This document shows positions 821-34,177 of a stretch of 34,881 bases of DNA, piece by piece. The notes beneath the pieces were generated by a model that had not been told where the DNA came from, searched no databases, and was given only the letters and a program-made list of their open reading frames with translations. Each line of letters opens with the position of its first letter. Positions within the stretch are counted from its first letter, which is position 1. Source of the DNA: Bacteroidales bacterium (GTDB lineage Bacteria; Bacteroidota; Bacteroidia; Bacteroidales; UBA932); NCBI GenBank assembly GCA_017519865.1, contig JAFWRQ010000025.1:1-34881 (forward strand), in the 5' to 3' direction. The translations under genes were made by a program, and so were the position numbers.

Positions 821-991
821 GAGAACAAAAACGCATTGTTTGTTCTTGAATCGACGCTCTCACCCCAGAATAAGAACAAATCCACCCGTTTTGTTCTTCA
901 AGCAGATTGAAACAAGAACAGAATCGTTAAATCTGTTCCTGAAACGGATGAGCCAGTGCGAGAAAAGAACAAAACCCGGCAGTTCGTCCTG
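821..991. repeat. Array of four 27-bp inverted-repeat units (AAGAACAAA, 9-bp spacer, TTTGTTCTT)
   Basis: Half-sites of AAGAACAAA alternate in orientation. Unit 1: 821-829 (GAGAACAAA) and 839-847 (TTTGTTCTT). Unit 2: 872-880 and 890-898, both exact. Unit 3: 914-922 (AAGAACAGA) and 932-940 (TCTGTTCCT). Unit 4: 965-973 exact, with a degraded partner at 983-991. In every unit the two half-sites start 18 bp apart. Units start 51, 42 and 51 bp apart, close to whole helical turns (5, 4, 5). This looks like an operator array for a dimeric DNA-binding protein. RNA hairpins are the alternative. Confidence 0.7.
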
Positions 992-1009
992 CAATTCGTT
1001 CAGTTCATC
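980..1009 (+). promoter_or_regulatory. Tandem LytTR-like boxes upstream of malQ
   Basis: CAGTTCGTC (980-988) and CAGTTCATC (1001-1009) are direct repeats with an exact 21-bp period, and CAATTCGTT (992-1000) lies between them. LytTR-family regulators are known to bind 9-bp direct repeats separated by about 12 bp, that is 21 bp start to start. The same sequence family with the same period occurs at 5120-5170 upstream of the kinase and transporter genes. The pair lies about 45-70 bp upstream of the malQ -7 box, a plausible activator position. Confidence 0.55.
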
Positions 1010-1030: not shown

Positions 1031-1044
1031 GTCAATTAATTGAC
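1031..1044. promoter_or_regulatory. Perfect 14-bp palindrome GTCAATTAATTGAC upstream of the malQ -7 box
   Basis: The sequence equals its own reverse complement over 14 bases. It ends 8 bp before the malQ -7 element, covering where a -33 element would lie. This makes it a candidate operator. It occurs nowhere else in the intergenic regions of this window. Confidence 0.5.
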
Positions 1045-1052
1045 ATTCTTAT

Positions 1053-1060
1053 TATATTTG
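1053..1060 (+). promoter_or_regulatory. -7 element (TATATTTG) for malQ
   Basis: TATATTTG fits TAnnTTTG and predicts transcription from about 1067, giving a 5' leader of about 60 nt before the ATG at 1128. No TTG lies 19 bp upstream; that place is taken by the 14-bp palindrome. Confidence 0.6.
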
Positions 1061-1127
1061 TCTCAACAAGGGCACGGCCGGTGTTGCCAAGCGCCGCGGT
1101 GACCTTGGAGACTAACCGCATTCTGAT

Positions 1128-3182
1128 ATGAAAGCTAGATTTACCGTTGAATACCACACGCAGTGGGGCGAGGACCTTTACCTGGTTTGCCAGGGGAAGA
1201 AGTACGCCATGGAGTATTGCAAGGGCGGTTTCTGGACCGTCGAGATCGACAAGTTCACCGGCGCCATGCTGCTGGACTACACGTACGAAGTCGTGCGCGA
1301 CGGGCTTGTGGTGCGCCAGGAGTGGAAGCACCACAGCCGTCAGGCGAAGCGGGGCGAGACGTCGTTCCGCGATGCGTGGAACGACGTGCCCCCGGGAGGC
1401 AACGGCTTCCTGCGCGAGCACTCGACCGCGCTCTTCGACAAGAAGGGTTTCCGCGGGGCGGGCACGGCCATCCCGGTGTTCGCGCTGCGCAGCAACGACG
1501 ATTTCGGCGTAGGCGAGTTCTACGACCTGAAGCAGATGGCCGACTGGGCGGCGATGACCGGCCAGACCGTGCTGCAGTTGCTTCCTATCAACGACACGAC
1601 GATGACCCACGAGTGGATGGACTCCTATCCGTACAACGCCAACTCTACGTTCGCCCTGCATCCGCAGTTCATCAATCTGCCGGCGGCTGGTGTGAAGGTG
1701 ACGCCCGCGTTCAAGAAGCAGCGGGCTGAGTTGAACAAGCTGGAGAAGATCGACTACGTCAAGGTCAATCAGGCGAAGACTAAACTGCTCAAGGCGGTCT
1801 TCGCGGGGCCGGAGGGCGAGAAGGTGCTCGCGAGCGAGGCCTACAAGGATTTCTTCGCCGCCAATGCCCACTGGCTGCTGCCGTACGCCGTTTTCTGCGC
1901 CCTGCGCGACGAAAACGGCACGCCGGACTTCTCGCAGTGGGGCCCGTACGCGAAGTACAGCCTTAAGAAAGCGAAGGACTACTATGCAGCCCACAAGTCC
2001 GAAGTGGACTACCACTGCTTCGTGCAGTACCATCTCGACAAGCAACTTAAGGAAGTCTGCGCCTATGCTCACGGCAAGGGCGTTGTGTTCAAGGGCGACC
2101 TGCCCATCGGCATCAGCCGGACGAGCGTGGACGCCTGGTGCCACCCGGACCTCTTCAATATGGACTCGCAGTGCGGCGCACCGCCGGATGCTTTCGCTGC
2201 CGACGGCCAGAACTGGGGATTCCCGACGTACAATTGGGACAAGATGGCCGAAGACCATTACGCCTGGTGGAAGAGCCGCCTGGGCAAGATGGCTGAATAC
2301 TTCGATGCTTTCCGCATCGACCATATCCTCGGTTTCTTCCGCATCTGGGAGATCCCCGTGCCGGAGAAGAGCGGCCTTATGGGCCACTTCAGCCCGGCCC
2401 TGCCTTACGCAGAGGAGGAGATCAGGCAGAAGGGCCTTCCGTTCGACGGGCTTTTCCTTGAGGACCCGCACCACAAGGGCTACTGGCATCCGCGCATCTC
2501 GTCGCAGTTCACCGAGGCTTATGAGCGCCTGAATGACTGGCAGAAATGGACCTACAACGACATGTACGACCATTTCTTCTACCACAGGCACAACGAGTTC
2601 TGGAAGCAGCAGGCCCTGCGCAAGCTGCCGGAACTGCTGGGCGCGACCGGCATGCTCGCCTGCGGTGAGGACCTCGGCATGATCCCTGCCTGCGTTCCGG
2701 AAGTGATGGAGTCGCAGCGCATCCTTTCTCTGGAGATCCAGCGTATGCCGAAGGACCCGAAGCAGACCTTCGCCATTCCTTCGGAGTATCCTTATATGAG
2801 CGTCTGCACGACCTCCACCCACGATATGAGCCCGCTGAGGGCGTGGTGGGAGGAGGAAGACCGCGGCACCATCCAGCGTTACTACAACGAAGTGCTGGGC
2901 CGCGGCGGCGAGGCTCCGGCTGAGTGCACGCCCGAGATCTGCGAGCAGATCATCGCGCAGCACCTCGCCTCGCCCGCGATGTTCACAATCCTGCCCCTGC
3001 AGGACTGGCTGGGAATGGATGCCGAACTGAGGTTCAAGGATCCGGCCGAGGAGCGCATCAACGTTCCGGCCATCTGCCCTTACTACTGGCGCTACCGCAT
3101 GCACCTGACGCTTGAAAACCTCCTGTCACAGAAGGCTTTCAACGACAAGGTAAAGAAGATGGTGGAGGATAGCGGAAGGTAG
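1128..3182 (+). CDS. malQ: 4-alpha-glucanotransferase (amylomaltase, GH77) with one N-terminal CBM20-like domain
   Basis: MalQ is a cytoplasmic enzyme that transfers maltodextrin segments between chains and releases glucose. It has 684 residues and no signal peptide. Residues about 1-90 resemble a starch-binding CBM20 domain (a WGEDLYL start and many aromatics). The GH77 barrel begins near 110 (AIPVFALRSNDDFG). Expected catalytic residues are present: nucleophile D398 in FRIDHILG, acid/base E514 in CGEDLG, and D566 in STHDMSP. Many Bacteroidota and plant DPE2-type enzymes carry two CBM20 copies and are longer, so this is a compact form. Its stop codon abuts that of the response regulator coming from the other side with no spacer. 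Upstream boxes suggest joint control with the starch operon. Confidence 0.95.
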   Translation: MKARFTVEYHTQWGEDLYLVCQGKKYAMEYCKGGFWTVEIDKFTGAMLLDYTYEVVRDGLVVRQEWKHHSRQAKRGETSFRDAWNDVPPGGNGFLREHSTALFDKKGFRGAGTAIPVFALRSNDDFGVGEFYDLKQMADWAAMTGQTVLQLLPINDTTMTHEWMDSYPYNANSTFALHPQFINLPAAGVKVTPAFKKQRAELNKLEKIDYVKVNQAKTKLLKAVFAGPEGEKVLASEAYKDFFAANAHWLLPYAVFCALRDENGTPDFSQWGPYAKYSLKKAKDYYAAHKSEVDYHCFVQYHLDKQLKEVCAYAHGKGVVFKGDLPIGISRTSVDAWCHPDLFNMDSQCGAPPDAFAADGQNWGFPTYNWDKMAEDHYAWWKSRLGKMAEYFDAFRIDHILGFFRIWEIPVPEKSGLMGHFSPALPYAEEEIRQKGLPFDGLFLEDPHHKGYWHPRISSQFTEAYERLNDWQKWTYNDMYDHFFYHRHNEFWKQQALRKLPELLGATGMLACGEDLGMIPACVPEVMESQRILSLEIQRMPKDPKQTFAIPSEYPYMSVCTTSTHDMSPLRAWWEEEDRGTIQRYYNEVLGRGGEAPAECTPEICEQIIAQHLASPAMFTILPLQDWLGMDAELRFKDPAEERINVPAICPYYWRYRMHLTLENLLSQKAFNDKVKKMVEDSGR

Positions 3183-3932
3183 TTATCCGAGCCAGGCGAG
3201 GAAATCGTCCACACGGGCCCGGGCCACCGTCATCTCGAACGGAGGCCCGGGCTCGGCGTCTATCCGCAGCCTCCCGCCGAACTGGCGGGTGACGCTGCGG
3301 ATGGCCGGCATCGATACGATGCAGCCCCGCGAGATGCGGAAGAATTTCCTGGGGTCGAGTTCCGCCGCGATGGTGTCCAGCGACGCGTCAACGATGTAGT
3401 GCGCGCCGCTGGTGTCAGCCAGATAGTTGTATTTGTCCTTGGAATAGAAATAGGCGATGTCGGATGTCTTGACGGGTATTATGCGTTCTCCGACGCTGAC
3501 GACGAAGCGCTCCTTGTATTCCGGCTGCTCCCTGCGACCGAGGGCTTGCATCAGGGCATCGACGTCGACGCCGCCGCTCCGCTCGCGGCAGCGGTCGACA
3601 GCCCTGTGCAGCGCCGCCGGATCTATCGGCTTGAGCAGATAGTCCACGCTGCCGGCCTCGAAGGCCTTGACCGCGTAACTGTCGTAGGCCGTGGTCATTA
3701 TGACTTTGGCTGTGATCCTTTCCTGACGGAAGATCTCGAAACAGTCTCCGTCCGAGAGTTCCACGTCCATGAAGATGACATCGGCGGAGTGGGCCGGGTC
3801 GCGCAGCCAGGCCAGCGTCCCGGCCACGGAAGAGGCCGTCCCAACGACCTCTATGTCAGGGAAACTGGAGGTAAGTGTCCTGGCGAGGTTGTCCCGCGCC
3901 ATCTTCTCGTCTTCTACGATCAGCGCCTTCAT
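3183..3932 (-). CDS. LytTR-family response regulator
   Basis: A 249-residue cytoplasmic transcription regulator. The receiver domain (1 to about 120) has the acidic pocket E7-D8, phosphoacceptor D56 (IFMDVELSDG), the switch Thr in MTTAY and the Lys in LLKPID. A LytTR DNA-binding domain fills about 144-249. The gene starts 6 bp after the kinase stop, so the two are co-transcribed. LytTR proteins bind tandem 9-bp direct repeats. Matching boxes lie upstream of the kinase and MFS genes (5120-5170) and of malQ (980-1009), so I infer that this protein regulates itself and the starch genes. Known relatives are LytR/AgrA/AlgR. Its 3' end meets malQ end to end. Confidence 0.93.
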   Translation of the reverse strand: MKALIVEDEKMARDNLARTLTSSFPDIEVVGTASSVAGTLAWLRDPAHSADVIFMDVELSDGDCFEIFRQERITAKVIMTTAYDSYAVKAFEAGSVDYLLKPIDPAALHRAVDRCRERSGGVDVDALMQALGRREQPEYKERFVVSVGERIIPVKTSDIAYFYSKDKYNYLADTSGAHYIVDASLDTIAAELDPRKFFRISRGCIVSMPAIRSVTRQFGGRLRIDAEPGPPFEMTVARARVDDFLAWLG

Positions 3933-3938
3933 ATTTCT

Positions 3939-5075
3939 CTATATCAGGGGTATTACTACTGTATAATCCTTGTCGGTCATCTGGACGGTGACTTCCTTGC
4001 CGGACACGTCCCGGTACTGCTCGCGCAGGTACTTCAGGCCCAGGCCGGTGGAAGGTCCGTTCGAAACCTTGGGGTTAAGGTTGTTGGACACGACTATGCT
4101 GTCGTCCTCGCAGCGCACGCCGATGCGCAGGAGTTTGTCTTCGCTGATGGAGTTGTGCTTGGTGGCGTTCTCGATCAGCAATTGGACCGAGCAGGGGACC
4201 ACGCGCCGCCCCATCTTGTCTTCGGGAATGTCGATGCTGATGTCTAGTCCTTCCGGGAAGCGGACCTTCAGCAGGTCGACGTACTGCTCCACGAACTCCA
4301 TCTCGTCGCGGAGGGTCACCAGCCGCTCCTGCTCTATGCGGAGCATGTAGCGGTAGATGCCGGCCAGTTTATGGATGTAGGTGGATGCCTGTTCGGTTTT
4401 CTCCTCGCAGACGAGACAGTCCAGGATGTTGAGGCTGTTGAACAGGAAGTGGGGGTTCACCTGCTGGCTGAGGTTCATGTAGCGGTACTGGGCCAGGCGC
4501 GCCTTCTCCTGGTCCTCGAGCGCCCGCGCATTGATGCGCATGGCGTTCTCGGCCAGGAAGATCAGCGCGCCGAGGCTGAACACGTAGTCGACGATAATGC
4601 TCGCCACGATGTTCTCCCTGTCGACGCCTCCGGAGAGTATGAGCAGGATGGTCAGCCTGACGGCGATGACGGTCACGAAGGCCAGGAGCAGCCAGCGCAT
4701 GCCGCTGCTGTCGGTGACCTGGAACTTGCCTTCGCGGGCCAGCCTGCCGGCTATCATATAGATGCCCCAGCCGACGATCTCTGTCGTGAGGAAGGTGGAG
4801 ATGGGGTTGATTACGAGAGGGGAGGATGCGGCAAGCCCGACCAGCGAGGATATGCCCTTGGCTATGCCGAAGCCGACTATGTTGACGAGGATCAGGCTGA
4901 AAGCCATGAACTTGGCGCTCATCCCGCGCCGCAGGCAGATGATGACTACCAACAGCATCGTGAGCAGGGTCAGGACGATTTCGTCGGTGAGTCCCAGGGC
5001 GCGGCATCCGAGCGCCAGTCCTGCGTGCAGGAGGGCGAACAGATGGATTATCAGGGCGTCACGGGACTTCGACAT
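3939..5075 (-). CDS. LytS/YehU-type membrane sensor histidine kinase
   Basis: A 378-residue sensor kinase. Roughly the first 175 residues hold about six hydrophobic membrane segments with little extracytoplasmic sequence, so no separate ligand domain is visible. A short linker leads to the His_kinase domain with phospho-accepting H209 in QQVNPHFLFNSLN, typical of the LytS/AlgZ class. A HATPase region follows with N303 in LLIENATKHN and a G-box STGLGL. It is the first gene of a two-gene operon with the LytTR regulator and is divergent from the MFS transporter. The signal is not evident from the sequence. Maltodextrin sensing is inference from position only. Confidence 0.92.
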   Translation of the reverse strand: MSKSRDALIIHLFALLHAGLALGCRALGLTDEIVLTLLTMLLVVIICLRRGMSAKFMAFSLILVNIVGFGIAKGISSLVGLAASSPLVINPISTFLTTEIVGWGIYMIAGRLAREGKFQVTDSSGMRWLLLAFVTVIAVRLTILLILSGGVDRENIVASIIVDYVFSLGALIFLAENAMRINARALEDQEKARLAQYRYMNLSQQVNPHFLFNSLNILDCLVCEEKTEQASTYIHKLAGIYRYMLRIEQERLVTLRDEMEFVEQYVDLLKVRFPEGLDISIDIPEDKMGRRVVPCSVQLLIENATKHNSISEDKLLRIGVRCEDDSIVVSNNLNPKVSNGPSTGLGLKYLREQYRDVSGKEVTVQMTDKDYTVVIPLI

Positions 5076-5109: not shown

Positions 5110-5117
5110 CAAATATA
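5110..5117 (-). promoter_or_regulatory. -7 element (TATATTTG) for the kinase-regulator operon
   Basis: On the minus strand TATATTTG fits TAnnTTTG and lies 34 bp upstream of the kinase ATG. The tandem LytTR-like boxes begin 3 bp further upstream in this orientation, and no -33 TTG is present, consistent with autoregulation. Confidence 0.6.
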
Positions 5118-5119
5118 GT

Positions 5120-5170
5120 CAATTCGTCCATGAAATAATGCGTTTCGTCGGCAAAAACCGACCGTTCGTC
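5120..5170 (+). promoter_or_regulatory. Three tandem LytTR/AlgR-like boxes at 21-bp period
   Basis: CAATTCGTC (5120-5128), CGTTTCGTC (5141-5149) and CCGTTCGTC (5162-5170) are direct repeats sharing TTCGTC, each exactly 21 bp apart. The third is identical to the published AlgR (LytTR family) consensus CCGTTCGTC. They lie between the -7 elements of the divergent kinase-regulator operon and the MFS/sus operon, beside the gene for a LytTR regulator. This is the strongest operator prediction in the window. Confidence 0.75.
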
Positions 5171-5203
5171 TTTTATAATGTTCGCGCGTGTGAAAAAAAT
5201 ATA

Positions 5204-5211
5204 TACATTTG
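5204..5211 (+). promoter_or_regulatory. -7 element (TACATTTG) for the MFS/sus operon
   Basis: TACATTTG fits TAnnTTTG, 27 bp upstream of the ATG at 5239. The last LytTR-like box ends 33 bp upstream of it, near where an activator would touch RNA polymerase. A -33 TTG is lacking (TTCG instead). The element overlaps an upstream in-frame TTG at 5209, which argues against that TTG as the start codon. Confidence 0.65.
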
Positions 5212-5238: not shown

Positions 5239-6564
5239 ATGAACAAACGTAACCTCACCTTCTGGCAGATGTGGAATCTCAGCTTCGGATTTTTCGGAGT
5301 CCAGATAGCCTATGCTCTCCAGAGCGCCAACATCAGCCGTATTTTCGCGACGCTGGGAGCGGATCCGCACCAGCTCAGTTTCTTCTGGATCCTTCCGCCG
5401 CTGATGGGCATGATCGTCCAGCCCCTCATCGGCAAATGGTCAGACCGGACCTGGTGCCGCATGGGCCGCCGCAAGCCCTACCTGCTCGTCGGAGCGATCG
5501 TGGCAGTGCTGGTGATGCTCTTCCTGCCCAACGCAGGCAGCCTGAGCTTCAGTTCGCGCCTGCTGCTGGGGCTTAACGGAGCCATGTGGTTCGGCCTGTT
5601 CTCGCTGATATTCCTCGACACTTCCATCAACGTAGCCATGCAGCCCTTCAAGATGATGGTGGGCGACATGGTGAACGAGGAGCAGAAGGGCAAGGCCTAT
5701 TCCATCCAGTCGTTTCTCTGCAACGCCGGATCCTTCGCCGGCTACCTCTTCCCGATCTTCTTCACGTGGATCGGTATCGCCAACACCGCTCCAGAAGGGG
5801 TCGTGCCCGACTCCGTCAAGTGGAGCTTCTACATCGGCGCCCTCATCCTTATCCTCTGCGTTCTCTACACCTTTGCCAAGGTCAAGGAGATGAATCCGCA
5901 GGAGTATGCCGAGTTCCACGGCATCGACCTGCAGAAGCAGCAGGAGCAGAAGCACGAGGGCATCATCAGCCTGCTGGCGCATGCGCCCAAGGCTTTCTGG
6001 ACCGTCGGCCTCGTGCAGTTCTTCTGCTGGTCGGCATTCCTCTACATGTGGACCTACACCAACGGCGCCATCGCCTCCACCGTCTGGGGGACTACCGACG
6101 CCGCGTCGGAAGGCTATCAGGCCGCCGGCAACTGGGTGGGTGTTCTGTTCGCCGTCCAGGCCGTGGGCTCCATGCTCTGGGCGCTCCTCATCCCCAAGTT
6201 CCGTTCGCATCGCACGGCCTACGTCGTGAGCTTGATCCTCGGAGCCGTGGGATTCATCTCCGTGTTCTTCGTGCATCACCAGTATGCGCTGTTCGTGTCG
6301 TTCCTGCTCATAGGCGCGGCCTGGGCGGCTATGCTGGCACTGCCGTTCACCATCCTTACCAACTCCCTCACCGGTGAACACATGGGCGAGTATCTCGGCC
6401 TGTTCAACTGCACGATCTGCCTGCCGCAGATCGTCGCGGCCGCCATCGGCGGAGTTGTGCTGCGGCTGGTCGGCGGCGCGCAGGTGAGCATGATGGTAGT
6501 CGCGGGCGTGCTGCTGCTGTGCGGCGCCGCCGCGGTCTTTGCCGTCAAGGAAAAGAAAAACTAA
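5239..6564 (+). CDS. MFS sugar transporter (GPH/SLC45-like; probable maltose or maltodextrin importer)
   Basis: An inner-membrane carrier of 441 residues with about twelve hydrophobic segments. The loop SDRTWCRMGRRKPYLL is the MFS motif A in the form typical of the GPH/SLC45 sucrose-maltose transporter branch. The start is set at the ATG at 5239 because the in-frame upstream TTG sits inside the -7 promoter box. It is the first gene of the starch operon, 21 bp before susC, and divergent from the kinase. Several Bacteroidota carry an MFS maltose transporter beside their starch locus. Here it probably imports maltose or glucose made in the periplasm by SusA and SusB. The substrate is inferred from context. 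Confidence 0.9.
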   Translation: MNKRNLTFWQMWNLSFGFFGVQIAYALQSANISRIFATLGADPHQLSFFWILPPLMGMIVQPLIGKWSDRTWCRMGRRKPYLLVGAIVAVLVMLFLPNAGSLSFSSRLLLGLNGAMWFGLFSLIFLDTSINVAMQPFKMMVGDMVNEEQKGKAYSIQSFLCNAGSFAGYLFPIFFTWIGIANTAPEGVVPDSVKWSFYIGALILILCVLYTFAKVKEMNPQEYAEFHGIDLQKQQEQKHEGIISLLAHAPKAFWTVGLVQFFCWSAFLYMWTYTNGAIASTVWGTTDAASEGYQAAGNWVGVLFAVQAVGSMLWALLIPKFRSHRTAYVVSLILGAVGFISVFFVHHQYALFVSFLLIGAAWAAMLALPFTILTNSLTGEHMGEYLGLFNCTICLPQIVAAAIGGVVLRLVGGAQVSMMVVAGVLLLCGAAAVFAVKEKKN

Positions 6565-6585: not shown

Positions 6586-9500
6586 ATGAAAAGAATCGTA
6601 ACAAAACTCGTGGGCATCATGCTTCTCAGCCTGGTGACCACCGCTGTGTCCGCTCAAAACGGATATCAGGTCAAGGGTGTAGTTACTGATGCCTTGGGTC
6701 CTGTCATCGGTGCGACCGTCATCGAGCAGGGTACCACCAACGGTACCACGACAGGCATCGACGGTGACTTCATCCTTAACGTTGCCAGTGCCAACTCGAC
6801 GATCGAAGTCAGTTGCATCGGCTACGCCACGCAGACTTTCAAGGCTTCCGAGGTGCCTGCAACCATCCATCTCGAGGAGGACAGCGAGTTCCTCGACGAG
6901 GTGGTCGTCATCGGCTACGGTACGGTCAAGAAGAGCGACCTCACAGGTTCGGTCTCGACCGTCAAGGCCGATCAGCTTACGAAAGGTGTCGCAACTTCGC
7001 CTACTACCCTGCTCCAGGGTAAGAGCGCAGGTGTCGTAGTCACTTCAGGCGACGGCGCTCCTGGCTCTGGCAACACGATCCGTATCCGTGGCGGCTCTTC
7101 ACTGAAAGCCAACAACGACCCTCTGATCGTTATTGACGGTCTTCCCATCTCTGAAGTCGGCATCACCGGTGTCGCCGACCAGCTCTCTTCGATCAACCCG
7201 AGCGATATCGAGTCGTTCACCGTCCTCAAGGATGCATCTGCTACCGCAATCTTCGGTAGCCGTGCTTCCAACGGTGTTATCATCATCACCACCAAGAAGG
7301 GTTCGAAGTTTGACAACTCCGTCCACGTAGACTTCGACTTCACGGGCTCTGTCAGCCAGAACACCAAATATGTCGACGTCCTGACTGGAGACGAAATCCG
7401 TGCCTTGATGGCGAAGCGTTACGGCACTGACAGCGATGCTTATGCGCTGCTCGGCAGCGCCAACACCGACTGGCAGAAAGAGATCTTCCAACTTGCACGC
7501 ACCCTCGAGGGCAATGTTTCTGTAACTGGAAAGGTAGGCAAGACCAATGACTTTTATATGCCTTACCGCTTGTCCTTGGGTTATCACAACCAGGATGGTA
7601 CCCTCAAGACCTCCAATCTTGCACGCGAGACCCTGGCCATGAGCCTCACTCCCACCCTGCTTGACGAACACCTCACCGTGAACCTCAATGCCAAAGGAAT
7701 GAATATGGACAACCGTTTCGCCAATACAGGCGCCATCGGAGCCGCGGTCAAATACGACCCTACCAAGCCTGTGTATGACAACAACGGTCTGAACGGTTAC
7801 AGCTGGTGGAATTACGGCAAGGGCACTTTCACCGTGGACAACTGTAACACTATGGCCGGCCAGAACCCTATGGCATTGTTGAACGACTTCGTAGACTATG
7901 CCAACGCAAAGAGGTTCGTCGGCAACGCCCAGTTCGACTACAAGCTGCACGGTTTCGAAGACCTGAGATTCAACCTTAATCTCGGTATCGACTACTCCAG
8001 GTCCAACGAGACCATCGATGTCGCCCCCGACACCGAGCAGTCAATGCACAGCACTGCACAGCAGGCTAACAACCACGCTTCAGGTTATCACCAGAACAAG
8101 ACGCAGACCAAGAACGACCAGACTCTCGAGTTCTACACGGACTACAGTCACGATTTCGACGGACACTTCATCGACCTGATGGCCGGATATTCATGGTCTC
8201 ATTATTATTACGAGAACTTCTCCGAGACCTTCAAGGCTGACGGCACCTCCAAAAGTGATGCATCTTACTATCTGTCGAATCCTTATACTTTCAAGACGGA
8301 GTACTTCCTGGTTTCTTTCTTCGGAAGGGTCAATTACAGTTACAGCGACCGTTATCTGATCACTGCTACCCTTCGCCGTGACGGAACTTCGAGGTTTGCC
8401 AACAACAAGTGGGGTCTTTTCCCTTCGGTTGCTGTCAGCTGGAACATAAAGAACGAGCCTTTTATGGGCGACGCCAGCGCGCTTTCCGCCCTCAAGCTCC
8501 GTGCTTCCTGGGGCCAGACAGGTCAGCAGGACCTCAACGCGGGAAACTATCCTTCCCTCGCCACTTATACTTATAACACCGACGCCAGCATGTTCATCTT
8601 CGGCGACAAGGTCATCACTCCTATCACCCCCAACGGCTATAATGCCGACTTGAAGTGGGAGACCACGACGACCATCAATGCCGGACTCGACTGGGGTTTC
8701 TTCGGTGACCGTCTGTATGGCGCCTTCGACGTTTACAAACGCAATACCTTCGACCTCCTCAACTGGACTCCTGTCGCTGCAGGCGCCAACCTCACCAACT
8801 ACCTCAATGCCAACATCGGCGACCTTGAGAACCTGGGAGTCGAGATGGAAGTCAATGCCGTACCCGTGGAGACCAAGGACTGGAGCTGGACCCTCGGATT
8901 CAATGCCGCTTATAATAAGACGATCGTAACCCGTCTGACTTCGGATGACGAAAGGGAGGACTATTACGGCGTCGACACCGGCGGTATCTCCGGCGGTTCG
9001 GGCAACACCGTCCAGGTCCACCAGACCGGACAGGCTCCCAGCTCGTTCTACGTGTACAAACAGATCTACGACACTGCCGGCAATCCTATCGAGGGTGCTT
9101 ACGTCGACCTCAACAATGACGGTGTGACCGATGCCAAGGACAAGTACTGCTTCCACAAGGCGGCTCCGGACTGGACCTTCGGCTTCAACACCCAGTTGTC
9201 TTGGAAGCAGTGGACCCTTGCTGCAAGCGCACATGCCAATGTGGGCAATTATGTCTACAACAACGTGATGAGTGATGGTGACCTTCTCACCGACCTTACC
9301 ACCAACGGCTTCGTGAACAACCGCTACAAGACTGCGGAGGCCCACAATTTCAACAACTACGCCCAGTACTGGTCAGATATGTACGTGACCAACGCCTCTT
9401 TCCTGAAGCTTGACAACATAACCCTTCAGTACAGCTTCTCAAATCTCTTTAAGGTGGGTGAGCGCGGTATTGGTGGCAGTATCTTCACGACCGTCAACAA

Positions 9501-9615
9501 TGTCGCCTGTTTGACTGGATACAAGGGTATCGATCCCGAGATCTTCAACGGCATTGACAATAACATGTATCCTCGTCCCCGCACCTATATCCTTGGTGTG
9601 AAATTCAATTTCTAA
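6586..9615 (+). CDS. susC: SusC-like TonB-dependent outer-membrane transporter
   Basis: A 1009-residue outer-membrane barrel importing oligosaccharides using TonB energy. It has a cleavable signal peptide (cleavage near VSAQ), an N-terminal carboxypeptidase-regulatory-like domain (about 28-100: VKGVVTDALG, GATVIEQG), and a TonB-interacting segment DEVVVIGYGT starting at D104. A plug follows (SVSTVKADQL, LLQGKSAGVVV, IRIRGGSS, VIDGLP), then a long beta-barrel ending in aromatic F (VKFNF), as is usual for outer-membrane insertion. It is followed 12 bp later by susD. The neighbours (GH13 enzymes, GH97, MalQ) make starch or maltodextrin the likely cargo. The length matches typical SusC proteins. 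Confidence 0.95.
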   Translation: MKRIVTKLVGIMLLSLVTTAVSAQNGYQVKGVVTDALGPVIGATVIEQGTTNGTTTGIDGDFILNVASANSTIEVSCIGYATQTFKASEVPATIHLEEDSEFLDEVVVIGYGTVKKSDLTGSVSTVKADQLTKGVATSPTTLLQGKSAGVVVTSGDGAPGSGNTIRIRGGSSLKANNDPLIVIDGLPISEVGITGVADQLSSINPSDIESFTVLKDASATAIFGSRASNGVIIITTKKGSKFDNSVHVDFDFTGSVSQNTKYVDVLTGDEIRALMAKRYGTDSDAYALLGSANTDWQKEIFQLARTLEGNVSVTGKVGKTNDFYMPYRLSLGYHNQDGTLKTSNLARETLAMSLTPTLLDEHLTVNLNAKGMNMDNRFANTGAIGAAVKYDPTKPVYDNNGLNGYSWWNYGKGTFTVDNCNTMAGQNPMALLNDFVDYANAKRFVGNAQFDYKLHGFEDLRFNLNLGIDYSRSNETIDVAPDTEQSMHSTAQQANNHASGYHQNKTQTKNDQTLEFYTDYSHDFDGHFIDLMAGYSWSHYYYENFSETFKADGTSKSDASYYLSNPYTFKTEYFLVSFFGRVNYSYSDRYLITATLRRDGTSRFANNKWGLFPSVAVSWNIKNEPFMGDASALSALKLRASWGQTGQQDLNAGNYPSLATYTYNTDASMFIFGDKVITPITPNGYNADLKWETTTTINAGLDWGFFGDRLYGAFDVYKRNTFDLLNWTPVAAGANLTNYLNANIGDLENLGVEMEVNAVPVETKDWSWTLGFNAAYNKTIVTRLTSDDEREDYYGVDTGGISGGSGNTVQVHQTGQAPSSFYVYKQIYDTAGNPIEGAYVDLNNDGVTDAKDKYCFHKAAPDWTFGFNTQLSWKQWTLAASAHANVGNYVYNNVMSDGDLLTDLTTNGFVNNRYKTAEAHNFNNYAQYWSDMYVTNASFLKLDNITLQYSFSNLFKVGERGIGGSIFTTVNNVACLTGYKGIDPEIFNGIDNNMYPRPRTYILGVKFNF

Positions 9616-9627: not shown

Positions 9628-11223
9628 ATGAAAAAGATTTTAAACATATTTATCACAGCTGTCGCACTTGTCGCGGCTTGCTCGCTTTCTTCTTGTGTCG
9701 GTGACCTTGATGTAACCCCTATAGATCCCAATACCGTGCTCCCTGAGGATGTGTTGAAAGACCAGGATGCATTCACCAGCCTGCTCGCCAAGTGCTACCA
9801 GGGACTTGCCTGCTCATCGTCCAGCGGTGAGAATGGAAATCCCGACATGTACGGTATCGACGGCGGTTTCGGCCAGTATATGAGGGCTCTTGTGAATACA
9901 GAGGAACTTCCTACCGACATTATAACCTGCTGCTGGAATGACGGTAATCTTTTCGATGTCCACAATATGTCGTGGAATGCATCCAACGAATTCGTGCTCA
10001 GCATGTACTATAGGATTTTCTTCCAGATAGGCCTCTGCAATGAATTCATACGCCAGTCCAACTCAACGGAAATCACCGGATACACCCTTAAGAATGCATA
10101 CATCGCCGAGGCGCGCGCCTTGAGGCTCCTCAGCTGGTATCATGCCATCGATATGTTTGGCAACGTTCCTTTCTCCGACGAGAACTCAAGCGTCGGTTCT
10201 CTTGGTGGTGACCGCATCGAGAGGGCGGATCTCTTCGACTGGATGGAGAATGAAGCCAATGACCTTCTCTCCGGGAGCGACCTTGCAGAGCCCGGCAAGA
10301 ATGAATACGGCCGCGCCGACAAGGGCATGGTCCAGATGATCCTTGCTAAACTCTATCTAAATGCTGAGATTTGGAAAGGTAGTGCAATGTATGACAAATG
10401 TGCGGCCGTGTGCGAGAAAATCATCAGCGAGTATCCTCTTCACAGCACTTACACCGATCTCTTCAGCGCCGACAATCACCTTTTCAGCGCCAACACCACC
10501 TATAAAGGTGACGAGATCATCTTCCTTTCTCCTCAGGACGGCGACCTGATCCACTCCTGGGGCTCTACCAACTTCCTTGTTTTTGCCAGCACCTGGGCAG
10601 TTACAGGCGACCCCGACCGGACGATGGACGTCAATGAAGTCGGCATTTCTTCCGGTTGGTCCGGACTCAGCCTTACCGGTGCCTTCACCAGCAAGTTCGA
10701 GAGCTCGGATGCACGTGCAACCTTCTTCAAGGGCGGATTCGAGCAATACATCGACTATCTGCGCGGCCCTAATGGTGAGTCGAACGGTTGGAAGTCGATG
10801 AAGTTCAGGAATATCAACCACGATGGTTCAGCTGCAAAGGCTCAAGGTTTCGTGGATACCGACTTCCCGATCTTCCGCAGCGCCGACGCTTACCTGATGT
10901 ATGCAGAGTGCGCAGCACGCGGACAGGCTGACAAGACCAAGGGCCAAAACTACCTCAATGCCGTCCGCAGCCGCGCCGGCGTGGGTAACATCGACCTCAC
11001 TCTATCCAATATCATCGACGAGCGCGGACGTGAGCTTTATCTTGAAGGTTTCCGCCGTCAGGATCTCATCCGGTTCGGCCTCTTCACCACCTCTGATTAC
11101 CTTTGGGAATTCAAGGGCGGCGTACAGAACGGCCAGGCCGTCGACTCCCACTATAACCTCTATCCGATCAGCCCCGGTGAGCTCAATGCCAACAGCAAGC
11201 TTATCCAGAACCCCGGATACTAA
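9628..11223 (+). CDS. susD: SusD-like surface glycan-binding lipoprotein
   Basis: A 531-residue RagB/SusD protein that caps the SusC barrel and binds glycan. The lipobox SLSSC gives lipidated Cys23, followed by acidic residues (VGDLD), consistent with surface export. The N-terminal helical region includes NAYIAEARALRLLSWYHAIDMFG, the usual SusD TPR signature (shown here only as evidence of the fold). The C-terminus has RGRELYLEGFRRQDLIRFG and a final NPGY. It lies between susC and the SusE/F-like gene, 15 bp from the latter. The order C-D-E matches the classical Sus locus. Starch as ligand is inferred from the operon. Confidence 0.95.
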   Translation: MKKILNIFITAVALVAACSLSSCVGDLDVTPIDPNTVLPEDVLKDQDAFTSLLAKCYQGLACSSSSGENGNPDMYGIDGGFGQYMRALVNTEELPTDIITCCWNDGNLFDVHNMSWNASNEFVLSMYYRIFFQIGLCNEFIRQSNSTEITGYTLKNAYIAEARALRLLSWYHAIDMFGNVPFSDENSSVGSLGGDRIERADLFDWMENEANDLLSGSDLAEPGKNEYGRADKGMVQMILAKLYLNAEIWKGSAMYDKCAAVCEKIISEYPLHSTYTDLFSADNHLFSANTTYKGDEIIFLSPQDGDLIHSWGSTNFLVFASTWAVTGDPDRTMDVNEVGISSGWSGLSLTGAFTSKFESSDARATFFKGGFEQYIDYLRGPNGESNGWKSMKFRNINHDGSAAKAQGFVDTDFPIFRSADAYLMYAECAARGQADKTKGQNYLNAVRSRAGVGNIDLTLSNIIDERGRELYLEGFRRQDLIRFGLFTTSDYLWEFKGGVQNGQAVDSHYNLYPISPGELNANSKLIQNPGY

Positions 11224-11238: not shown

Positions 11239-14200
11239 ATGAAAAAGATTCTTTATTCATTTCTCTTGATGGCGGCCGGCTTATTCGCCGCATCATGTGA
11301 ACAGGCTCATATTGAAGAGATATTCAACCCCGCAGCGGTCAACGTCCAGACTCTCGGAGTTATTCCCGGAGCGGTCCTGGATTCTGAAGGAGCGGCACTG
11401 ACCACTACTTTCAATGCTGTGGACTTCAAGATACCTGTAGCTTCTACATACACCCTTTATGCTTCTGCTTCGTCCGACATGTCGGACCGCAAAAAGGTTT
11501 CTGCATCTATCAAGCTGGATGAGAATCGCGAAACCGGTACGATCACTTTGCTGCAGAAAGATCTCAATTCTCTGGTTTACAACCTCGGAGGAGAGGCTGA
11601 CGTTCCTTTTACAATCTATTTCCAACTGGCGGCTGCCATAGTCAATGACAAGAGTGCGGCAATTGCCGTTACCGAGCAGCTCTCCAATATCGTGTCTGCG
11701 GAATTTACTCCGTACAGCACTGTTATCAGGGATGTCGACCTGTATGATCATGTCTGGGCTATCGGTGCCAGTTCCATGATGGGTGGCTGGAGTCACGATA
11801 AGGTGTTCCAGTTCCTTTATGATTACGGCAAGACCGGCGACACATTTACTGGCCTGCTGGACTTCGGTGAAGACCATAGCGAAAACCAGTTCAAGTTCAC
11901 AGGTGCAGCCAGTTGGGACGACGCTACCGGAAACTGGGGTGTCGCTGCTGACCAGGAAGAAGCAGAGCCTGCCAGCCTCCAGCTCGAGAATGGTTCAAGC
12001 ACCAATATCACCCACTATACCGAGAAACGCTACTATGCATTCTCGCTCAACACCACATCTCTCGTCCTTACCAAGCTCTACAGCTTCGACAACATAGGTA
12101 TCGTCGGTGCATTCAACGGCTGGAACGCCGCAGATGCCAACATGAAGATGACCTACAATGCGTATATGAACCGCTTCTGGATCGATCAGACCTTCTCCGA
12201 GGCCACGGAGCTCAAGTTCACCTGTGACGACGACTGGGGCCTCAACTGGGGTGGTTCCAACGGTGAAACCGCTCCCGGCGGAGACAATATCGCCGTCGAT
12301 CCCGGTTCATATCGTATCTACATCGACCTCAATAAGGGTCAGTATGAGTTCAGCGCATCAATGTACGGCAAGGACGAACCTACAGGAGACGATACTCCCG
12401 ACGAGCCCGTAGCTTATGAAGGCTGGGGTGTTGTCGGCACCATCAACGATTGGGGTGGCTCCCCTGATGTCCATATGACCGTAATGGGTGATTTCTGGGT
12501 AGCCAAGGGTGTCAGCATCACTGCCCAAGACCAGTTCAAGTTCCGCAAGGATGAGGATTGGGGTGTCAACATCGGTGCTGCCGGCGACGTCGAGCCGTTC
12601 ATTGTCACCGTGGGTAATAAATATGAAGGTGTTGCAGGCGGTAAGAACCTCGGTGTTCCCGCCGACGGCAAATATGACCTCTATGTTAATCCTGATGCTT
12701 CAACATTCTACGTAATGGCAGAAGGTGAGGTCCCCGGAGAACTTGCAACCTGGGGCGTCGTAGGCACCATAAATGGATGGGGCAGTTCCGCCGACCTGGC
12801 GATGACCGTTGAAAACGGTATGCTTGTACGCAAGAACGTAGCCCTGACCACAGATGACCAGATCAAGGTACGCTTCCAGAACGACTGGGATGTCAACCGT
12901 GGTGCTCCCGGTAGTGTAGAGCCATTCATTATGGGCAAGGACGCTATCCAGGCTGTTCCAAATGGAAAGAACCTCGGTGTGGCGGAAAACGGAGAATATG
13001 ATGTATGGTACGACGAGGGTAACGAAATCCTCTTCGTGGTGCCTGCCGGAGAAGCTCTCGAATATTGGGGAGTTGTAGGCAACCTTACCAACTGGGGCGG
13101 TGATCCTGACTTCATCATGTACAAGGAAGGCGACTTCTATGTACGCAGGGGTATAGAATTCACCACAGAACATCAGTTCAAGATCCGCTTCAGTAGTGAC
13201 TGGACCGTCAATCGTGGAGCCCCCGGTGATGTTGAGCCGTTCGTTGTCGAGGCTAACTCTGTGGTTGATGCTTCTCAGAATGGCAAGAATCTCGGTGTCG
13301 CTGAAGCCGGCAGTTACGATGTCTGGTATGACGCAACCAACGAGAAACTGTACGTAATGACAAATGGAACCGCACCTGCCGATGCGACGGAACCCGAAGA
13401 ACCGGAGCCTACAGCTCCTAACAGTTGGGGTATCGTAGGCGAAATGACGGAATGGGCAGACAATGCTGACATTGCTATGACCAAAGAGGGTGTCTGGTTC
13501 TATGCTACCGGCGTCAATCTCGGAGGTGGCCAGCAATGGAAGATTCGCGGAGACGGAGCGTGGACGTTCAACCGTGGTGCATCGGGCGACGTCGAGCCGT
13601 ATGAGATGACTGTTGGCGAGGGTCTGTCCGTCGTACAAGGTGGAAAGAATCTTTCCGTTGCCGAGAGCGGTACCTATGACGTGTACTATAACTCTGCCGA
13701 CGAGATGCTCTACGTTATGACGGAAGGCAGCAAACCCGACGGTTTCCGCGTTTTTGGCGATTATATCTTTGCCATCGGCGGAGATACCGGTTGGAGCGGA
13801 ACATATCCTCTGCGCAGCAGTGTCACTGATGGAAGCAATACCGGTGTCTACAAGGGATTCGGCTGGCTGAGCGCTGAGTTCAAGTTCAAACCGAATGCAG
13901 ACAACTGGGAGGGTGACTGGGAGTTTGACAGCGAGGGCAAGATTGCCGACATTGCCGACGGCCCCAACTGTCCTGCTCCGGAGACTGCAGGTTATTATAT
14001 GATCGAGGTCGACCTCAACACCATGACATTTAAGTTGACCCTGATCAATTCCATCGGTATCATCGGACCAGCTCAGGATGGAGGATGGGACACCGATACG
14101 GATATGACCTACGATTCTGAGACCGGTGCCTGGACAGCCACTGTCACACTTGCTTCCGACAACATGAAATTCCGGGCCAACGATGCTTGGGATATCAATT

Positions 14201-14328
14201 GGGGTGGAAGCCTCGATGCCCTGACTCAAGGTGGTGGTGATATCGCCGTTGAGGCTGGTACCTACACCATCCACCTTTATGCTTGGTGCGATGGCAAGGC
14301 CTACGCAAAAATGACAAAGTCAGAATAA
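11239..14328 (+). CDS. Very large SusE/F-like starch-binding lipoprotein with about eight tandem binding modules
   Basis: A 1029-residue surface lipoprotein (lipobox AASC, Cys20, then acidic EQAHIEE). Residues about 22-160 match the SusE N-terminal domain. SusF/SusE-type modules begin near residues 165, 285, 395, 505, 610, 730, 835 and 939. The four from 395 to 834 are close copies, each opening with WG(V/I)VG and containing VEP(F/Y), GKNL and Y-D-(V/L) motifs; modules at 505 and 610 are identical at about half of positions by eye. A Pro/Glu/Thr-rich linker precedes the module at 730. The classical SusE and SusF proteins carry two and three modules, so this protein could do the work of both. 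It is followed by a terminator. Starch binding is inferred from family and context. Confidence 0.9.
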   Translation: MKKILYSFLLMAAGLFAASCEQAHIEEIFNPAAVNVQTLGVIPGAVLDSEGAALTTTFNAVDFKIPVASTYTLYASASSDMSDRKKVSASIKLDENRETGTITLLQKDLNSLVYNLGGEADVPFTIYFQLAAAIVNDKSAAIAVTEQLSNIVSAEFTPYSTVIRDVDLYDHVWAIGASSMMGGWSHDKVFQFLYDYGKTGDTFTGLLDFGEDHSENQFKFTGAASWDDATGNWGVAADQEEAEPASLQLENGSSTNITHYTEKRYYAFSLNTTSLVLTKLYSFDNIGIVGAFNGWNAADANMKMTYNAYMNRFWIDQTFSEATELKFTCDDDWGLNWGGSNGETAPGGDNIAVDPGSYRIYIDLNKGQYEFSASMYGKDEPTGDDTPDEPVAYEGWGVVGTINDWGGSPDVHMTVMGDFWVAKGVSITAQDQFKFRKDEDWGVNIGAAGDVEPFIVTVGNKYEGVAGGKNLGVPADGKYDLYVNPDASTFYVMAEGEVPGELATWGVVGTINGWGSSADLAMTVENGMLVRKNVALTTDDQIKVRFQNDWDVNRGAPGSVEPFIMGKDAIQAVPNGKNLGVAENGEYDVWYDEGNEILFVVPAGEALEYWGVVGNLTNWGGDPDFIMYKEGDFYVRRGIEFTTEHQFKIRFSSDWTVNRGAPGDVEPFVVEANSVVDASQNGKNLGVAEAGSYDVWYDATNEKLYVMTNGTAPADATEPEEPEPTAPNSWGIVGEMTEWADNADIAMTKEGVWFYATGVNLGGGQQWKIRGDGAWTFNRGASGDVEPYEMTVGEGLSVVQGGKNLSVAESGTYDVYYNSADEMLYVMTEGSKPDGFRVFGDYIFAIGGDTGWSGTYPLRSSVTDGSNTGVYKGFGWLSAEFKFKPNADNWEGDWEFDSEGKIADIADGPNCPAPETAGYYMIEVDLNTMTFKLTLINSIGIIGPAQDGGWDTDTDMTYDSETGAWTATVTLASDNMKFRANDAWDINWGGSLDALTQGGGDIAVEAGTYTIHLYAWCDGKAYAKMTKSE

Positions 14329-14340
14329 ACTCCTGTTTTA

Positions 14341-14370
14341 CCGGGAGCCTTTGACCGGGCTCCCGGTTTT
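14341..14370 (+). terminator. Intrinsic terminator between the SusE/F-like gene and the amylase gene
   Basis: CCGGGAGCC (14341-14349) pairs perfectly with GGCTCCCGG (14358-14366), with an 8-nt loop and TTTTCT after the stem. The amylase ATG follows 16 bp later and no new -7 element is visible. The likely effect is partial termination, so that binding and transport proteins are made in larger amounts than the enzymes. Confidence 0.85.
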
Positions 14371-14385: not shown

Positions 14386-16641
14386 ATGAGAAAGTTGATT
14401 ATCGGCATGTTGAGCGCGGTGCTGCTCGCCATTGCCTGCACCCACCCGGTTGACCCTGCAACCCTTTCCGTTTCGCCGGCTTCCATGTCCTTCGAAGCTG
14501 AAGGAGGTACTTCGCAGTCCCTTACCATTACCAGCAATTCCGACTGGACCCTGTCTGTCACGGAGAGCTGGCTGCATGTCAGTCCTGCCATGGGTAGCGG
14601 TAACGCAACCGTCAGCATCGTGGCCGATGTCAACAATGGCACGGAATCCCGCAGGGCTGCAATCAACGTCAATGGTGCTAAAACATTCACGGTTGACGTT
14701 ACACAGTCAGGTGTGGCCATTACTGATATCGTTCCCATTCCATCCTCTTTCGACGGCAATAAGCGCTCGTCGACGACGTATCAGCTGCTGATTTATTCCT
14801 TCGCGGACAGCGACAATGATGGTGTTGGAGACTTCAATGGAATCCGGAACCGTCTGGACTATCTGCATGACCTGGGAGTGACCGCGCTGTGGCTTTCTCC
14901 TGCACATCCCACCTCGTCTTATCACGCATATGACGTGAACGACTATTTCAAGGTCAATGATCTGTACGGCACGCAGGCTGATTTCGAGAATCTTGTCAAA
15001 GCCGCCCATGATAAGGGAATCAAGATCTATATGGACTTCGTGTTGAACCATAGCGGCAAAGGCAATGATTGGTTCAAGAGCGTACAAGCTGACCCCGAGA
15101 ACAGCCCGTACAAAGATTTCTATGTGCTCTCCAAGAACCCTTCCGCTGACGCAAGTGCCGGGAAGATAGACAATTATGGTGGAGGAAAGGATATAGGAAT
15201 GGGCGGATGGCATTCCCTCGGAGATGGTGACCTTGGCTACAAGGGCCGTCTGCATTTCAAGGTTCAGACCAACGGCGGTAAACCATACAAGGTGACTGTG
15301 ACCGAGACGGACGAAGCAGTCACCGGGAGCGTTTCGAACGCATCCCTATGGATATATGCTGGTAATCCCGGGAAGGATTATGCGATGAAGAAAACCGCCG
15401 ACAACGTTTTTGAACTGGTTGCGGACATCGACACCCCCTGGGGCTTCCTGGTCCGTACGGTCAGTGGCGGCAGCTGGCCCGATGGAAGCAAGTACGGCGG
15501 TGTGGCGGGTGCCAATACCATCACCTTTGACCAGCCTCTCACCCTGACTTCAAACAATGCCCAGGACATTACCTTTGGGGCTACGACTTATTATCTGGCG
15601 AGTTTTGACGCTTCGATGCCTGACCTCAATTATGGCCCGTACACTTCTTGCGAAGAGTCCGGCGCTTTCAAGTCCACCGTGGAAGCGGCAACAAAATGGA
15701 TGAACCTCGGCGTAGACGGTTTCCGCCTGGATGCCGTACTATGGATCTATCAGGCACAGATAAAGGCCAACCAGCGTTTTCTGGACCAGTGGTATCAGGC
15801 AGTGAACACCGCTTACAAGGCCATTCCAGGCCATGACGATGACATCTTCATGGTCGGTGAGGCGTGGGAAGGGCACGGGATAGAGAAGCAATACTACAAA
15901 GGACTTATCTCCAACTTTGAATTCGAGTATTTCGGTGCACTCACCAATGCGGTTAACAAAGGTTCTGGAGGAAGTTATGTCTCTGCGGTCTCTGGTTATA
16001 TACAGGACCACAAGAGTCAGCGTTCCGATGCCATCACTTCCATCTTTATGACCAATCACGATCAGGACCGCGCTGCAGAATCCTTCGGCAAGGATGTAGC
16101 TAAGGAGAAGCAGGCCGCAGCAATGCTTCTAAGTTCGGAAGGTAAACCCTTCATCTATCAGGGCGAAGAACTTGGTTATTGGGGCAAGACTGAGAAAGGC
16201 GACGCTTCCCGTCGTCAGCCGATGGCCTGGGACAAGAATCTTTCCGACCTGTGCAAATTCGGCCTGTCCGACAACCATAAGTCGGACCTGACAGATTACG
16301 ATATGGTTACAGCTTCCATCTCGGTGGAGGCCCAGGATTCGGACAAGAACAGCCTTCTGAACGTTTACAAGGCGTGGAACCGGGTACGTAACACCTATCC
16401 CGCGATGGCGGAGGGCACGATGACCGCCTCGTCGCTGAATGGCGGCGCTATCGCCTCGTGGTATATGACCTCCAGCGACGGAAAGAAGATGCTGGTCATA
16501 CATAACTGCGGTAACGCGGAGAAGAGGCTGGGTGTCGCTGACAGCATCTCCAAGCCTGTTGTTGTCCTTGGTACGGTCAAGGCCGAACGCAATACGTTGA
16601 TTATGCCTGGACATTCCTCAATAGTTTTTGATTTACAGTAG
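14386..16641 (+). CDS. susG: SusG-like outer-membrane alpha-amylase: BACON + GH13 with an inserted domain
   Basis: A 751-residue lipoprotein (lipobox AIAC, Cys18) hydrolysing alpha-1,4-glucan at the cell surface. Residues about 28-112 form a BACON domain (LSVSPASMSFEAEGG, TITSNSDWTLSV). The GH13 barrel starts near 130 (YQLLIYSFADSDNDGVGDFNG). Catalytic residues: nucleophile D449 in GFRLDAV, acid E492 in MVGEAWEG, D559 in TNHDQDR. A segment of roughly 110 residues (about 285-400) interrupts the barrel between the KDIGMGGWH region and FDASMPDLNYG. SusG carries CBM58 at the equivalent point, and this insert may be the same. The symbol is assigned by architecture and position. B. thetaiotaomicron SusG is shorter and, to my knowledge, lacks a BACON domain. 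Confidence 0.9.
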   Translation: MRKLIIGMLSAVLLAIACTHPVDPATLSVSPASMSFEAEGGTSQSLTITSNSDWTLSVTESWLHVSPAMGSGNATVSIVADVNNGTESRRAAINVNGAKTFTVDVTQSGVAITDIVPIPSSFDGNKRSSTTYQLLIYSFADSDNDGVGDFNGIRNRLDYLHDLGVTALWLSPAHPTSSYHAYDVNDYFKVNDLYGTQADFENLVKAAHDKGIKIYMDFVLNHSGKGNDWFKSVQADPENSPYKDFYVLSKNPSADASAGKIDNYGGGKDIGMGGWHSLGDGDLGYKGRLHFKVQTNGGKPYKVTVTETDEAVTGSVSNASLWIYAGNPGKDYAMKKTADNVFELVADIDTPWGFLVRTVSGGSWPDGSKYGGVAGANTITFDQPLTLTSNNAQDITFGATTYYLASFDASMPDLNYGPYTSCEESGAFKSTVEAATKWMNLGVDGFRLDAVLWIYQAQIKANQRFLDQWYQAVNTAYKAIPGHDDDIFMVGEAWEGHGIEKQYYKGLISNFEFEYFGALTNAVNKGSGGSYVSAVSGYIQDHKSQRSDAITSIFMTNHDQDRAAESFGKDVAKEKQAAAMLLSSEGKPFIYQGEELGYWGKTEKGDASRRQPMAWDKNLSDLCKFGLSDNHKSDLTDYDMVTASISVEAQDSDKNSLLNVYKAWNRVRNTYPAMAEGTMTASSLNGGAIASWYMTSSDGKKMLVIHNCGNAEKRLGVADSISKPVVVLGTVKAERNTLIMPGHSSIVFDLQ

Positions 16642-17871: not shown

Positions 17872-17881
17872 CTGGCTTGAA

Positions 17882-19102: not shown

Positions 19103-19109
19103 TACCAAT

Positions 19110-21020: not shown

Positions 21021-21033
21021 ACACAGACCAGAT

Positions 21034-23277: not shown

Positions 23278-23292
23278 CCGCTTCGCCTGGCT

Positions 23293-23330
23293 CGATAACC
23301 TGCGGGTTTTTCCCGCAGGTTATCGGTTTA
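23293..23330. terminator. Strong hairpin terminator after susB
   Basis: CGATAACCTGCGGG (23293-23306) and CCCGCAGGTTATCG (23312-23325) form a perfect 14-bp stem with a TTTTT loop, followed by GTTTAT. It closes the starch operon. Its inner core CCTGCGGG/CCCGCAGG is also found in the repeats at 34113-34140. Confidence 0.88.
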
Positions 23331-29755: not shown

Positions 29756-29767
29756 TGCATTCACGGA

Positions 29768-32941: not shown

Positions 32942-32976
32942 TTGGTTGTTTTGATTTTAGTTTATAATGGTTTATT

Positions 32977-32984
32977 CAAATATA
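32977..32984 (-). promoter_or_regulatory. -7 element (TATATTTG) for the second susC
   Basis: On the minus strand TATATTTG lies 35 bp upstream of the ATG at 32941. TTTTG is found 16 bp further upstream (33001-33005), a little closer than the usual 19 bp. The surrounding 32942-33060 stretch is AT-rich and free of genes. No LytTR-like boxes are seen here. Confidence 0.6.
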
Positions 32985-33070
32985 GCCATTCTATTCTCGA
33001 CAAAATTTCACTATTTATCTATAACCTTTTAATTATAGGTCATATAAGTATTAGAGGTGCTCATATGTGT

Positions 33071-33108
33071 AAAAAGGCGGGCCTGCTTGATAGCAGGCCC
33101 GCCTTTTT
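33071..33108. terminator. Strong bidirectional terminator downstream of the alpha/beta hydrolase gene
   Basis: AAAAAGGCGGGCCTGC (33071-33086) and GCAGGCCCGCCTTTTT (33093-33108) form a perfect 16-bp stem with a TTGATA loop and T-runs on both strands. It ends the minus-strand hydrolase gene 17 bp after its stop and insulates the second susC promoter. Confidence 0.92.
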
Positions 33109-33125
33109 GTGTGTTTTTCGGAACG

Positions 33126-34028: not shown

Positions 34029-34060
34029 ATAATCGTTTTTTGAGGTTGTCATTCGACATA

Positions 34061-34068: not shown

Positions 34069-34087
34069 CTCTTTTTTTCCGCCTTTA

Positions 34088-34166: not shown

Positions 34167-34177
34167 AAATAAAGAAA

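Follow-up and report, generated by a model that had tools for sequence, protein, structure and literature searches.

Background

Most of what is known about the control of starch use comes from work on SusR in Bacteroides (PMC3878776). In that account, SusR and the HTCS regulators control SusC/SusD genes together with polysaccharide-degrading genes, and the HTCS sites are direct repeats averaging 21 bp. These regulators carry the periplasmic sensor and the DNA-binding domain in one polypeptide, whereas the locus described here encodes a separate LytS-type kinase and a LytTR regulator.

Published LytTR operators consist of repeats of 9-11 nt with spacers of 11-13 bp (PMC4847170). The same source describes the YpdA/YpdB pair of E. 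coli, likewise of the LytS/LytTR type, which turns on the MFS gene yhjX via tandem repeats. The YpdB oligonucleotide printed there contains GGCATTTCAT twice, 21 bp apart, and the TTCAT core is common to the family box of the present locus. As presented in that source, YpdA/YpdB differs in having two boxes, a single direct target gene and an extracellular pyruvate signal, and it involves neither Sus proteins nor a Bacteroidales promoter. LytTR regulatory systems, including LRS-like operons of Bacteroides, similarly place direct repeats, separated by 11-13 bp, a few bp ahead of the promoter (PMC6193735). In S. mutans the repeats lie 4-11 bp upstream of the -35 element, in the other systems listed there the distance is most often 10 bp, and in the LRS-like example of B. 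thetaiotaomicron they stand 11 bp before TGTA-19 bp-TATCTTTG. In contrast to the present locus, these systems are described with a membrane inhibitor in the kinase's stead, with autoactivation rather than a starch operon as the outcome, and with other repeat words. The AlgZ/AlgR system of Pseudomonas also relies on a LytTR regulator, and its core word is CCGTTCGTC, yet its sites, as reported, are not necessarily 12-bp-spaced repeats and its targets are others (PMC4064291).

A LytTR pair controlling a Sus-type locus was absent from the titles and abstract openings searched, most subscription papers being outside reach. The locus is assembled from parts of known kinds, and a LytTR phosphorelay acting on a Sus-type alpha-glucan regulon would be the new combination.

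A box array between a LytS-type kinase gene and a sus operon

The window, i.e., the whole stretch of 34,881 nucleotides that was analysed, belongs to a 2.1-Mb Bacteroidales genome that is 75% complete and encodes seven LytTR proteins. A kinase/regulator pair and an MFS gene diverge from an interval with three boxes:

3183-3932, minus strand: response regulator with a receiver domain (PF00072; D56, K101) and a LytTR DNA-binding domain (PF04397), both above cut-off
3939-5075, minus strand: LytS-type sensor kinase (PF06580, above the Pfam cut-off) with hydrophobic N-terminal segments and HFLFN at residue 209
5120-5128, plus strand: box 1, CAATTCGTC, read from the letters of the window
5141-5149, plus strand: box 2, CGTTTCGTC, read likewise
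5162-5170, plus strand: box 3, CCGTTCGTC, ending 33 bp ahead of the -7 box
5239-6564, plus strand: MFS sugar transporter (Pfam), first gene of the target operon

The three boxes, their 21-bp period and their location between the kinase and sus genes had been pointed out in a preliminary description, and the positions are exactly as given there. The period is exactly 21 bp (9 + 12), which corresponds to two helix turns. The pattern CNNTTCGTC-N12-CNNTTCGTC has two overlapping matches in the window and none in 100 dinucleotide shuffles. Stop-to-stop frames span the array, yet the kinase gene starts on one side of it at 5075 and the MFS gene on the other at 5239, and we reject it as coding sequence.

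The presence of a LytTR regulator gene in the divergent operon holds as well: receiver and LytTR domains are encoded directly beside the LytS-type kinase. The residues D8, E9, D56 and K101 of the regulator are invariant in 27 aligned sequences, and together with the HFLFN of the kinase they form an intact set of what we take to be the phosphotransfer residues. Judged by hydropathy only, the N-terminal half of the kinase comprises several hydrophobic segments; since the longest gap between them is 43 residues, a large periplasmic sensor domain appears unlikely. Structures retrieved by a PDB sequence search match mainly the receiver, with 3d6w matching the LytTR part (best 60 of 70 and best 60 of 282 matches). 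In the alignment, no clear rule connects LytTR residues with box words. A plasmid search returned 43 records, every one below 60% identity.

The layout of nine-nucleotide repeats and 12-bp spacers was previously taken as the LytTR arrangement. It does fall within the published LytTR range of 9-11 nt and 11-13 bp (PMC4847170), but LytTR cannot be diagnosed from a direct repeat of 21 bp, since the HTCS sites predicted in PMC3878776 average 21 bp too. Box 3 is indeed identical to the AlgR core word as printed (PMC4064291). This identity says little, because the family box is degenerate and AlgR sites, according to the same source, are not necessarily 12-bp-spaced repeats; orthology with AlgR on the basis of one shared 9-bp word, given that degeneracy, is not accepted.

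Downstream of the MFS gene, the plus strand encodes:

6586-9615, plus strand: SusC/RagA TonB-dependent transporter (Pfam)
9628-11223, plus strand: SusD-like lipoprotein (Pfam; under the NCBIfam SusD cut-off)
11239-14328, plus strand: SusE-like protein of 1029 amino acids (Pfam)
14386-16641, plus strand: SusG-like alpha-amylase, GH13 with CBM58 (Pfam)
16645-23277, plus strand: GH53, GH13, neopullulanase-like GH13 and GH97 genes, separated by gaps of 3-13 bp

SusC, SusD, a SusE-like protein, a SusG-like amylase and GH97 together make this a Sus-type starch locus. The GH53-family gene (16645-17871) is set among amylase genes. Two long hairpins lie within the co-directional run, at 14340-14367 (11 pairs) and 23292-23326 (15 pairs), while terminator-like sites overall are not raised (10 versus 10.9 in shuffles). 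Because of these two hairpins, read-through to the last gene is unproven, and so is the predicted control over all 12 genes of the run. Elsewhere in the window, long open frames at 64-798 and 1032-3104 (both minus strand) are without Pfam match, the latter opposing a GH77 gene and probably being no gene. The minus strand at 28007-34879 encodes a SusC/SusD pair distinct from that of the operon, along with a PETase-like hydrolase and a portion of a further SusD gene.

Conservation of the array in relatives

Loci were collected around relatives of the regulator: 80 named ones from the best 80 of 267, mostly from uncultured rumen and gut Bacteroidales including Cryptobacteroides and Alistipes, and 30 unnamed ones including the window's own. 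From 111 regions, 28 without an MFS match and L099 (1588 bp) were left out. The 82 that remained, window included, were reduced to 68 non-redundant ones by removing right-aligned sequences at least 80% identical. A chain of boxes was present in 62 of the 68 (exceptions L016, L045, L046, L065, L093 and L096), and these 62 were used for box-anchored profiles.

The divergent kinase/MFS layout is kept in most loci long enough to show it. An exact TTC[AG]TC pair at 21 bp occurs in 53/68 intergenic regions and in none of 200 shuffle rounds; with one mismatch tolerated, 62/68 have a pair and 42/68 a triple, and boxes are on the opposite strand in 3/68. The conservation of the boxes in relatives, proposed earlier as a check, is thereby borne out. 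Pair distances are sharply confined, with 78 at 21 bp, 35 at 42 bp and at most two at any other distance up to 90 bp, and 9 of the 15 regions lacking an exact 21-bp pair have exact boxes 42 bp apart. The same periodicity emerges independently of the motif: 6-mer repeats are found at lag 21 in 47/68 loci and at lag 42 in 25, compared to a mean of 2.0 and a maximum of 7 at other lags. The shuffles of window and relatives and these motif-free repeats rule out a chance repeat.

The family box reads C-[CA]-[GA]-TTC-[AG]-TC. In the three closest relatives (L045, L046 and L049; regulator 81-83% identical), box 2 has two core changes, which leaves boxes 1 and 3 at a distance of 42 bp as the only ones preserved. 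L093 lacks boxes altogether, and L072, L074, L077, L119 and L124 have neither an exact 21-bp nor an exact 42-bp pair. Neither is a pair present at L092, L095, L110, L115 and L118, where the regulator is 52-56% identical and there is no divergent MFS match; L092 and L095 stop short of the SusC promoter.

The dimensions of the conserved element bear on whether the array could be an AraC-type operator of the HTCS kind. The 21-bp average of predicted HTCS sites would agree with this, as would the 15 AraC-type HTH_18 matches of this genome, eight of them in open frames of more than 900 amino acids. Two examples in PMC3878776, however, are 14- and 16-bp sites with spacers of 6 and 5 bp, whereas in the present family conservation covers about 9 bp and does not extend to the spacer. 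None of the 15 HTH_18 matches lies on the contig of the window, so an HTCS encoded at the locus is lacking, and the 23 window ORFs scanned with Pfam gave no match to an AraC, ECF or other regulator. On site dimensions and HTH_18 locations we judge an AraC/HTCS operator extremely unlikely.

Promoter elements around the array

Three promoter elements flank the boxes:

5204-5211, plus strand: -7 element TACATTTG of the MFS-sus promoter (Bacteroidales TAnnTTTG), from sequence and family profile
5180-5183, plus strand: weak -33 element slot, GTTC, deduced from the T-rich stretch that 62 loci show at +8 to +11 past the last box
5110-5117, minus strand: -7 element TATATTTG, 2 bp from box 1 and assigned to the presumed kinase promoter, its position not fixed in relatives

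Aligning the 62 loci by nothing but their last box brings out TAnnTTTG at +32 to +39, and T-rich positions at +8 to +11, the place of a -33 element. An exact TAnnTTTG is located 15-70 bp downstream of the array in 33/67 loci, with a gap of 31-33 bp in 27 of these 33. Such a layout is that of an activator site, suggesting that the regulator turns the promoter on. Geometry alone does not give the sign of control, and the regulator might instead repress the MFS-sus promoter, with induction being the release of repression. Against this, the array is positioned upstream of the -33 slot, so that the core promoter stays unobstructed; the slot of the window is weak, and LytTR regulators with repeats just upstream of -35 are described as activators (PMC6193735; YpdB in PMC4847170). 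We consider repression very unlikely and activation the preferred reading.

The kinase side is less uniform. On the minus strand, an exact TAnnTTTG is found in 17/62 regions at scattered offsets, some toward the MFS gene; with one mismatch, 12/62 have one 41 bp before box 1. Since the resulting 33-bp gap resembles that of the MFS side, activation of the kinase promoter is possible in those 12 relatives. The geometry of the window itself suggests repression of the kinase promoter: with the -7 box only 2 bp from box 1, a bound regulator would compete with the polymerase there. Among relatives the kinase-side -7 box varies in place or was not found, and autoregulation as a conserved feature is therefore not supported. 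Of the earlier proposal that the pair drives the MFS-sus operon and autoregulates, the first part gains from the comparison, in which the array is conserved at a fixed promoter distance; its extension to the whole run is unproven given the hairpins, and autoregulation is uncertain.

A second box pair ahead of a GH77 gene

The preliminary description covered the array only and had missed a second pair of boxes with its own -7 box:

980-988, plus strand: GH77 promoter box CAGTTCGTC
1001-1009, plus strand: GH77 promoter box CAGTTCATC, 21 bp from the first
1053-1060, plus strand: GH77 promoter -7 element TATATTTG, separated from the box by 43 bp
1128-3182, plus strand: GH77 4-alpha-glucanotransferase (Pfam), second predicted target

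Throughout the 2.1-Mb genome, TTCRTC-N15-TTCRTC occurs 16 times versus four for the backward control: two overlapping pairs in the array, the one ahead of GH77 and 13 others. Fifteen pairs, array included, were re-examined and all are overlapped by a stop-to-stop frame of 100 amino acids or more; the GH77 pair (980-1009) was checked separately. The 13 others have no TAnnTTTG 20-70 bp downstream, whereas both overlapping pairs of the array have one.

The 43-bp gap is kept in all four close relatives examined (L045, L046, L047 and L049), two of them with one box mismatch, and in three genomes whose regulator is 45-46% identical, the GH77 and MFS genes are each preceded by an array with a gap of 32 bp. 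Among 23 GH77 upstream regions, nine of which are distant matches (at most 40%), two have an exact pair and four a one-mismatch pair, four of these six coming from close relatives. The GH77 site is hence rejected as a general feature.

Distribution of arrays and other 21-bp repeats

When 151 genomes of the genus were scanned for the array together with a -7 box, 30 of them yielded a total of 37 sites, counting the one in the window, whereas the backward control yielded no site. These sites cover sus-type loci, GH77 promoters and OMP_b-brl_3 operons with their own kinase/LytTR pair. At 23 of the 37 sites, a LytTR gene is no more than 4.3 kb away, compared to about 3% expected from seven LytTR genes in 2.1 Mb, which argues further against an HTCS operator; at the other 14 it is absent from the fetched flank, some flanks being short. 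At L172 (7270-7345), an array is placed between YebC-like and DUF4412 genes. Its -33 slot is taken up by a hairpin-like inverted repeat, the flank is devoid of LytTR genes, and several other sites of the scan resemble it.

The scan brings up the question which LytTR regulator of the cell uses the array. It could be another one, e.g., that of the OMP_b-brl_3 system, with the adjacent pair acting elsewhere. Related genomes (L171, L173 and others) have OMP_b-brl_3-kinase-LytTR operons fronted by TTCGTC arrays 32 bp before a -7 box, with a regulator that is 23-24% identical, and one of the seven LytTR genes of the present genome adjoins an OMP_b-brl_3 gene. The repeat there, however, is a different-looking one (ATCCGTCGA/ATTGGTCGA), and kinase-regulator, array and MFS gene co-occur in most of the 68 non-redundant loci, which were picked by regulator similarity and so are not an independent proof of linkage. 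Triple arrays point the same way, being found in 11/44 genomes with a P0001 relative versus 0/17 without (p = 0.018, a statistic that ignores kinship). This association test is weak, because the backward control gives six matches in four genomes, only 9 of the 13 triple-array matches adjoin kinase or MFS matches, and the triple array of G293 lies within open frames (p = 0.028 once it is dropped). On balance, another LytTR regulator as the user of the array seems improbable, and the adjacent pair is the preferred candidate.

Other LytTR pairs have 21-bp repeats of their own. At a second alpha-glucan locus of this genome (L134; contig C9, 150000-165000), a paralogous kinase/LytTR pair stands in line with SusC/SusD, the regulator being 57% identical. 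The family box was not found at this pair; it has a different 21-bp repeat, CTGCTCACG/CCGCTCACA, whose GCTCAC pattern, picked after sight, occurs once in the genome. The related loci L115 and L118 show no 8-of-9 repeat at 21 bp. The YehT site oligonucleotide printed in PMC4847170 contains a CCGCTCA word similar to this repeat. At L135 (5080-5250), CAGTGAACG and CAGCGAACG are 21 bp apart before the kinase gene of another kinase/LytTR pair.

Discussion

In this study, we propose that the adjacent LytS-type kinase/LytTR pair uses the three boxes as its operator to activate the MFS-sus operon, and that the two-box site serves likewise for GH77. Judged from boxes, spacing, promoter elements, protein domains and conservation, we regard this as highly probable.

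The active membrane kinase, possibly responding to an alpha-glucan-related signal, would phosphorylate the regulator. The phosphorylated regulator would then line up two to three LytTR domains along one face of the DNA, from where it could touch RNA polymerase about 8-9 bp upstream of the weak -33 element. This contact would switch on transcription of the MFS-SusC-SusD-SusE-amylase genes, and the two-box site would have the same action on GH77. In this genome, a regulator on boxes 1 and 2 would overlap the divergent kinase promoter and probably limit the expression of the pair itself, as a negative feedback.

In a broader sense, the locus may represent a dedicated LytS/LytTR alpha-glucan regulon (sus plus GH77), a widespread further control mode beside SusR, hybrid two-component and ECF systems, in which the array activates sus and damps the kinase promoter. 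We hold the case for this wider reading to be evenly balanced. As the kinase appears to lack a sizeable periplasmic sensor domain, the cue for sugar uptake that it reads would be one in the membrane or inside the cell.

For Bacteroidales of gut and rumen, the use of starch is a central trait, and the array layout is seen in dozens of related gut and rumen bacteria. The rule of boxes plus promoter provides a route to LytTR regulons from sequence. If the proposed reading is true, a large group of mostly uncultured relatives would employ a phosphorelay with a different sensor and a different operator.
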